From Candidatus Zixiibacteriota bacterium (GTDB taxonomy: Bacteria > Zixibacteria > MSB-5A5 > GN15 > FEB-12), in contig JAHOYZ010000025.1 in the NCBI GenBank assembly GCA_019038695.1, positions 1-64,000 of the forward strand: a stretch of 64,000 nt of DNA, given 5' to 3'. The number at the start of each line of letters is the position of its first letter. The first letter of the stretch is position 1. The translations under genes and the position numbers were made by a program. The notes beneath the pieces are model-generated. The model saw only the letters and a program-made list of their open reading frames with translations. It was not told where the DNA came from and made no database searches. Positions 4,453 to 13,346 of the stretch are shown here, piece after piece.

Positions 4453-5295
4453 TCATTTGGCAGCTAAAACCTCGATGATTTCCGAGCAACCTCCGTCGCG
4501 CAAATAACAGGCATGGTCGTCAACATTCTCAAACTTCCGTCCGACTATTTCGGAGCACTCGAATTTGAAGTCGGTGCATTTCACAAACCTACCAATCGCA
4601 TCTATGGCTCCGGGATCATTAGAAACAATCTTACCACCTCGTTCCTTGTGGCGATTCATTCCGGTAATCCATATCGCGGCTCCCAATGCCCCACAGGCAC
4701 CCCCGCATAAGCCGATTCCGCCGGCAAATCCCGCCGCCATTACTGTATGCATGTCGGATGCGCCCATCTTTTGTGCCAACATTGCCGCACAACTTACCGG
4801 AGGGGAGGGCGCTTCGATATGTTCTTCGGAAAGAGCGGTGTTTATCTCATTGAATGCTACCGGGGCATATCTTGCCGCCATGCGAAAGCAGCCTATGGTC
4901 CCGCCTTTTAAAAGGAAGAATGTAATCATCTGCATTGTTGATGATGACTTGTCTATATCAGTTATTTCGAAGCAATTTATGTTGTTGTTGAGAGCACGGA
5001 AAGACTCTACAAGCCTATGTGCTGCAACAATCGCCTTAGATTCAGCCTGTGGTCCCGGACCAAGAAGTCGATACGCCTGCGCCCCTGCGGCAAGCGTTGC
5101 GCCCCAAATCATGCCGCACTGGTAGCCATATTGCATTATTCCGCCTGCTAAAGGCATAGCGGCGCGCTCCTCAAGTTTCAACGGGTGATCGAATGCACGG
5201 CCGAGAACTCTCGACAGTGTTTCCGATCATGTCCCACTTGTAAGAAATGCAAGCGTTGTTCCTGTCGATGATATCTCACTTTTTGATTTGGACAT
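4453..5295 (-). CDS. C_GCAxxG_C_C family redox protein, duplicated, with a disturbed 5' end
   Basis: The ATG at 5295-5293 follows AGGAG with a five-base gap and heads an open frame of 280 codons. From LSRVLGRAFDHPLKLEER (about residue 27) onward the sequence is a good two-domain C_GCAxxG_C_C protein, a presumed redox-active or metal-binding family of unknown substrate. Domain 1 has QCGMIWGATLAAG, INCFEI and IGCFRMA. Domain 2 has SCAAMLAQ, CGGACGALG, FECSEIVG and GGCSEII. Residues 6-25 in this frame are rich in Arg, His and Gln and do not look like the family. The neighbouring frame reads SEISSTGTTLAFLTSGT, then a TGA (5230-5228), then SE, and rejoins the main frame if the A4 run at 5284-5281 had one more base and the A4 run at 5223-5220 one fewer. 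The TGA falls where domain 1 should have its first Cys. This may be a selenoprotein with sequencing errors, a gene with a compensated frameshift, or a decaying gene. Confidence 0.72.
5196..5230 (-). promoter_or_regulatory. Candidate UGA-selenocysteine codon with SECIS-like hairpin
   Basis: On the minus strand a TGA (5230-5228) is followed 18 bases later by a four-base loop AGTT closed by GTCGAG/CTCGGC. A T-C mismatch and a further CAC/GTG pair extend the stem over 5219-5196. Bacterial SECIS elements are hairpins starting shortly after the UGA with a G among the first loop bases, so the geometry fits. The TGA lies in the frame that reads family-like upstream, not in the open frame from the ATG. 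A chance hairpin cannot be excluded, and no sel genes are in the window. Confidence 0.4.
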
Positions 5296-5339
5296 CACGT
5301 CTCCTCTTGTCTTTCAAACCAATTGTACCAGTCTTGTAG

Positions 5340-11732: not shown

Positions 11733-13346
11733 CTATGGACAGGGTGGCGGTTCGGGGCCACCAATGAATAAATACGCCACCAGATAGGTTAGATCAGCCA
11801 CGTTTATCGGCCCCCCCGTACCGCCAATGCCATCGACATTCCCCTCGATAATACATGGAGGTTCCAGTCCCCCTATAAAGAGGTATGCCACAAGATATGT
11901 GAGGTCAGCCACGTTTATCGCCCCCCCCGTACCGGTTATCCGATCGACATTGCCGCGCTCCTGACAACAACCGTCACCGCGGTCAAACCAGGCTTGATAG
12001 TCACTGCTTACATAAGCGATACCATATTCGTCGTCACCGATATACTCAATGTCCTGCTGAAAGGCGGTCCAGTTGTCGGTATATTGGACAGCTGGCTCAC
12101 CGCTGAGATGAATTGAGTCCTGGGAAACCCACCTGAACCGACCTGTTCTGACTGGAGCCATTACTTGTCGACTGTAGGCCCGGGCCAATCCTGCACCGCC
12201 CCGCATTGTCAGTGAGGGACTGTACGCCGGCGGTTCGAGATTCCGCGTATCCCAGGTCACTCCAATATCGGTGCTATAGGATTCATACAGAATGTGCGAG
12301 CCGGCTTGGTATTCGTAGATACAGACAACATCCATGCCATAAACATCAATCGCCGTTTCATCTTGAACACTTCCGCCCACGTAGGCTGTACGCTTCGTCT
12401 CAAACTGACTCGTGGTTCCCTGATAACGAGCTATCGTGCAATAGTCGGAAGGGCTGATGTAAGAGGCAAAGATCGGGTACCAAATGGATGGTGATACCGC
12501 TGCATCAAGTCCTCGGTCGAAATCAGTAATCCCCGAGGTCATGCCGTGCAGGGTTATCGCCGGGTCGATGCGAAAGAGATCAACGGTGCCGGTCGCTTCG
12601 CCTACGGCAATGTAGAGGAAATCATTGTCGGGGAACCCGTCGTTACAGCGTAGCACAACTTCAGTGGCATATGTACTCGGAATGACATCCCAGGTTGACC
12701 CACCGCTGGGAAAACTTCCTGTGAGTCCAGTGTCCCAGCGAAAGCGCCGCAGTTTCACCCAGCTACCGTCGTAGTTAGCTACGTAACAATGATTGTGCCA
12801 AACTGCGGCAGTAACCGAGTGCATTACCCAGCTGACACCGAGCCACTGCTTCTCGTACCAGGTGGCCCCACCGTCAGTGGAAAGAACGGAAGACATCGTA
12901 GTCGTCCAGCCATCACCCTCGTTCATAATGATCGCCATCAAGTTACCCGAGGGGCGATGAATTTCCATCTCAAGGGTCCTAACAGAATCCCGGGTGCTGA
13001 TGAGAACATCGGTTCCAAACCGGTCGGGCGAATTGGTTAGCACCGGCGTCCGCCACGTGCCCCATACCGACGCCCGACTAAGATCAGTTAGAGTTGCCAA
13101 TTCGTCGAACAGATGCAAGGCTTCGTCAAATGAACCTTTGTTCCACAACTCTTCAATCTGACGGGCAACAGCTTGCGCGTTTTCGCTGGACCCGCTTTCG
13201 AGATCCAATTGGATTTCAGCATTCTGTTTCTCCGCCGGGGTCAACAGTTCAAGACCCCTTTGAACCGGTTGCTCGACCGCAAAGCCGGTCGCGAACAACG
13301 TCAAACAGATTATGGATACTAATAAGAGTATGTGGATTCGGAACAT
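11733..13346 (-). CDS. Secreted sialidase-like protein with two dockerin-like C-terminal repeats
   Basis: 537 residues with a clear signal peptide (MFRIHILLLVSIICLTLFATGFA). The middle (about 90-455) has repeated Trp-rich beta segments such as STDGGATWYEKQWLG and STDIGVTWDTRN, resembling Asp-box/BNR propellers of sialidase-like proteins. The last 75 residues are two 37-residue units, each with GNVD, a short Gly-rich turn and INVADLTYLVAYLFIGG. These look like type I dockerin calcium loops and are abundant in exported proteins of Zixibacteria-like genomes. The function is probably extracellular or cell-surface, with anchoring through the repeats; no cohesin is in the window. A run of eight C (eight G in the coding strand) in the second-last repeat is prone to slippage. 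Confidence 0.75.
   Translation of the reverse strand: MFRIHILLLVSIICLTLFATGFAVEQPVQRGLELLTPAEKQNAEIQLDLESGSSENAQAVARQIEELWNKGSFDEALHLFDELATLTDLSRASVWGTWRTPVLTNSPDRFGTDVLISTRDSVRTLEMEIHRPSGNLMAIIMNEGDGWTTTMSSVLSTDGGATWYEKQWLGVSWVMHSVTAAVWHNHCYVANYDGSWVKLRRFRWDTGLTGSFPSGGSTWDVIPSTYATEVVLRCNDGFPDNDFLYIAVGEATGTVDLFRIDPAITLHGMTSGITDFDRGLDAAVSPSIWYPIFASYISPSDYCTIARYQGTTSQFETKRTAYVGGSVQDETAIDVYGMDVVCIYEYQAGSHILYESYSTDIGVTWDTRNLEPPAYSPSLTMRGGAGLARAYSRQVMAPVRTGRFRWVSQDSIHLSGEPAVQYTDNWTAFQQDIEYIGDDEYGIAYVSSDYQAWFDRGDGCCQERGNVDRITGTGGAINVADLTYLVAYLFIGGLEPPCIIEGNVDGIGGTGGPINVADLTYLVAYLFIGGPEPPPCP
11764..11945 (-). repeat. Two 111-bp tandem units coding the dockerin-like repeats
   Basis: The minus strand carries two related units with a period of 111 bases (37 codons): TCAGCCACGTTTATCG begins at 11794 and again at 11905 on the plus strand. 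The units differ by scattered substitutions and carry C7 and C8 tracts at the same place, coding the Gly-Gly turn before INVADL. Confidence 0.8.

Follow-up and report, generated by a model that had tools for sequence, protein, structure and literature searches.

A predicted two-domain C_GCAxxG_C_C selenoprotein encoded in a Candidatus Zixiibacteriota genome

C-GCAxxG-C-C proteins are listed as a selenoprotein family, with a "form 1" and a "form 2", in two reviews of prokaryotic selenoproteins (PMC9312934, PMC13188914), and the NCBIfam name of TIGR01909 is likewise the C-GCAxxG-C-C family "(seleno)protein". For this protein family, we found neither a structure nor a tested function. Here, we analyzed a stretch of 64,000 nucleotides from a Candidatus Zixiibacteriota genome (referred to as the window) containing a gene for a tandem form of these proteins, in which an in-frame TGA is almost certainly a selenocysteine (Sec) codon. 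It is very probable that this gene encodes a two-domain C_GCAxxG_C_C selenoprotein, with the UGA at codon 23 decoded as Sec via SelB, tRNA-Sec, and a hairpin in the message. This reading is strongly supported, because a TGA or Cys codon occupies the same position in the homologues, a SECIS-like hairpin accompanies the TGA, and the genome contains complete Sec machinery. The features of the locus are collected in Table 1.

Table 1. Coordinates of the features of the two-domain gene within the window
Feature	Position	Strand	Basis
Two-domain C_GCAxxG_C_C (PF09719) gene, predicted selenoprotein	4453..5295	-	Single frame with TGA read through, 280 residues plus stop
In-frame UGA, predicted Sec23 codon, at the first conserved Cys of domain 1	5227..5229	-	TGA or Cys codon in 27/27 aligned sequences
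AGGAG ribosome-binding site, 5 bases upstream of ATG	5301..5305	-	Direct reading of the sequence
SECIS-like hairpin, 44 nt from the TGA	5186..5229	-	-21.9 kcal/mol, z -3.75; compensatory changes
Domain 1, with predicted Sec23, Cys60, and Cys108	4948..5229	-	Alignment; PF09719 at 4948-5193 (genome), residues 23-116 (protein)
Domain 2, all-Cys	4456..4800	-	Alignment; PF09719 at 4456-4788

On the minus strand, one frame runs from the ATG at 5295-5293 through the internal TGA at 5229-5227 to a TGA stop at 4455-4453, and translation from this ATG reads MSKSKSEISSTGTTLAFLTSGT-U-SETLSRVLGRAF..., in the same frame throughout. As described in the initial annotation, the TGA lies within a C_GCAxxG_C_C gene, with SE after it and LSRVLGRAF downstream; the sequence around codon 23 is MSKSKSEISSTGTTLAFLTSGT-TGA-SETLSRVLGRAFDHPLKLEE... 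That annotation had also proposed two opposing frame disturbances at A4 runs on either side of the TGA, to be repaired by adding one A and removing another, and had left the choice between a selenoprotein with sequencing errors and a gene that escapes the UGA by a compensated double frameshift. Counting the bases on the minus strand gave runs of A5 (5284-5280) and A3 (5222-5220) rather than A4 and A4, so there is no base to add or remove: the sequence already reads as the repair would have it, no frame disturbance is present, and the Arg/His/Gln-rich "ATG frame" VRYHRQEQRLHFLQ is the +1 frame that arises from the miscounted runs. Given these run lengths and the match of close homologues to the direct frame from residue 1 onwards, compensated frameshifts or homopolymer errors around the TGA are extremely improbable. 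What survives of the earlier interpretation is the selenoprotein, which is backed by codon conservation, the hairpin, and the Sec machinery.

Homologues were collected from 194 genomes around the source genome and from the GTDB genome collection, and mostly shared 38-79% identity. Whether C_GCAxxG_C_C homologues have Cys or Sec at this column had been raised in the initial annotation, and both were found: codon 23 is TGA in 19 of the 27 aligned rows (window included) and TGC or TGT in eight. Every homologue covering the site, down to 38-40% identity, has either TGA or Cys there, and no internal stops other than codon 23 were present among the 27 sequences. The Sec forms come from records labelled Chloroflexota, Armatimonadota, Ignavibacteriota (Ignavibacteriaceae), and Zixiibacteriota. 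The Cys codons of the eight homologues are consistent with a pseudogene in which a nonsense mutation or sequencing error converted TGC or TGT to TGA, but 18 further genes, taken from separate assemblies, share the TGA at codon 23 while their frames are otherwise intact, and the hairpin accompanies the TGA form, making this explanation very unlikely. It is also highly improbable that translation starts after the TGA, at the TTG at 5181 (242 aa), with the upstream codons serving as a leader; this TTG is the mechanical start in the list of open reading frames, but close homologues retain the protein sequence of the 22 codons ahead of the TGA, the frame of the Cys forms crosses this stretch uninterrupted, and PF09719 begins at residue 23. 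Finally, reassignment of UGA to another amino acid, as in a code of the table 4 or 25 type, has nothing in its favour and a negligible probability, given that the gene's own stop is a TGA, that there is a single internal TGA, that homologues lacking the TGA invariably have Cys in its place, and that the genome encodes a full Sec system.

Decoding of codon 23 as Sec would be directed by the hairpin that begins at the UGA. A bacterial SECIS element is a hairpin that follows closely on the UGA and carries a G in its apical loop, and this geometry served as our yardstick. The stem-loop with loop AGTT that had been noted after the TGA is indeed present, as an interrupted hairpin with a lower stem (5229-5222 with 5193-5186) and an apical stem (5215-5210 with 5205-5200) closed by the loop AGUU (5209-5206), which contains a G and lies 17 nt after the UGA, consistent with the bacterial SECIS geometry. 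The fold is more stable than those of shuffled sequences (Table 1). Over the whole hairpin, 93.6% of cells are paired in an alignment of ten related Sec genes, compared to 20-51% in slid versions, and the apical stem reaches 100%; because these ten sequences are related, the shuffle counts cannot be read as probabilities. Changes on both sides of a pair were observed for two apical-stem pairs (alignment columns 17-28 and 18-27) and one lower-stem pair (6-39). The hairpin has been lost from the four closest Cys genes, where half of the cells in the apical stem do not pair and the fold z ranges from -0.9 to +0.9. In two distantly related Sec homologues, L040 and L045, no convincing hairpin of this shape follows the TGA, and other Sec clades have differently folding hairpins after the TGA. 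A second hairpin type, which differs in both apical stem and loop, was seen after the TGA in L050, L049, L051, L054, and L052, mainly Chloroflexota Sec homologues. An Rfam scan of the window returned no match at gathering scores.

The genes for Sec synthesis and insertion that the initial annotation had suggested looking for, selA, selB, selC, and selD, were all found in the source genome. selA (7e-149) and selB (1e-86) adjoin each other on contig C29, selD (3e-113) is on contig C10, and selC, the tRNA-Sec with anticodon TCA, is on contig C39; SelB and this tRNA would be the factors that decode the UGA at codon 23. The selD gene (L057:1501-2424, equivalent to G000:C10:49792-50715) itself contains an in-frame TGA, in CAGUASKL, the familiar Sec site of SelD. 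It is therefore a selenoprotein gene in its own right and independently points to the decoding of UGA as Sec in this genome. A tRNA-Sec and a selA match were detected in all 17 of the 17 genomes examined, including those with Cys copies (the selA match is partial in G104). Since the Cys-copy genomes also have selA and tRNA-Sec, the machinery alone cannot separate Sec from Cys genes, and loss of the Sec system does not account for the Cys forms.

Mapping Sec and Cys onto a maximum-likelihood tree requires five changes between them (three to five over bootstraps); most inner branches are poorly supported, and the well-supported branches force at least two changes, indicating that, as judged from this tree, Sec and Cys have been exchanged more than once. 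Together, the Sec and Cys homologues form a natural experiment in how the two residues replace each other and in how a SECIS hairpin is maintained within coding sequence. In genome G137, the two-domain gene occurs twice in tandem (L032:563-1390 and L032:1501-2331), each copy having TGA at the codon equivalent to codon 23. A gene for a zinc-type MDR oxidoreductase adjoins or lies near the homologue in seven of 25 loci (L049, L050, L053, L054, L032, L038, and L040), upstream or downstream and beside Sec and Cys forms alike; the one such neighbour tested has PF13602/PF00107/PF08240, and the gene is absent from the window. Elsewhere in the window, a gene at 11733-13346 ends in two GNVDxIxGTGGxINVADLTYLVAYLFIGG-like repeats resembling dockerin-type repeats.

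PF09719 matches the protein twice (60.7 bits against a gathering score of 27, 1.9e-16), and the conserved Cys pattern of this family is present in both domains (U/C23, C60, and C108 in domain 1; C169, C201, and C247 in domain 2). Cys60, Cys108, and Cys136, the last just beyond domain 1, are invariant among homologues in the first half alongside Sec/Cys at 23, while in domain 2, Cys169 and Cys201 are invariant and Cys247 and Cys270 nearly so. Cys169 is the Cys that had been reported at the place in the second domain matching the TGA. Direct BLASTP of the two halves against each other gave no convincing alignment, and in a profile comparison AGGI...CG and the following Cys-E-I motif aligned with a low probability of 6.6%, so the two PF09719 matches carry the case for duplication. 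In an AlphaFold2 model (mean pLDDT 78.9, pTM 0.84), the protein is entirely helical; nothing significant was found among solved structures by sequence profile or by the fold of this model, and plasmid records contained no match.

Judged solely by the name of its family and its conserved Cys residues, the protein is a putative thiol/selenol redox protein. Sec23, in place of the first Cys of domain 1, would probably be the reactive selenolate of a redox centre, with conserved Cys60, Cys108, or Cys136 as its partner, and the all-Cys domain 2 may pass on electrons or be structural. It is conceivable, if rather unlikely, that the two-domain form represents a distinct and widely shared selenoenzyme subfamily in which electrons are relayed between the Sec domain and the all-Cys domain, with occasional coupling to a zinc-type (MDR) NAD(P)-dependent oxidoreductase encoded nearby, and whose members switched between Sec and Cys several times while their genomes retained the Sec machinery. 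Automatic annotation would end this gene at codon 22 or begin it at TTG 5181, losing the likely catalytic residue.

Compared with described families, the protein resembles PF09719, which it matches above the cut-off in two stretches and which has known Sec-containing members. It differs from TIGR01909 in having two domains in tandem, and the whole protein scores 38.3 bits, below the NCBI cut-off of 47.4, so TIGR01909 would not name it and the two-domain form may escape annotation. Residues 45-118 weakly match another Sec-containing family, NF045501 (HUGP/GUXX-star fusion selenoprotein; E 0.0038), but membership is ruled out at 16.7 bits against a cut-off of 325. Domain 2 resembles NF045669 (DVU_1555 family C-GCAxxG-C-C protein; E 1.8e-7), at 31 bits and under the cut-off of 103. 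Sec is thus already known in PF09719, to which this gene adds a two-domain member.
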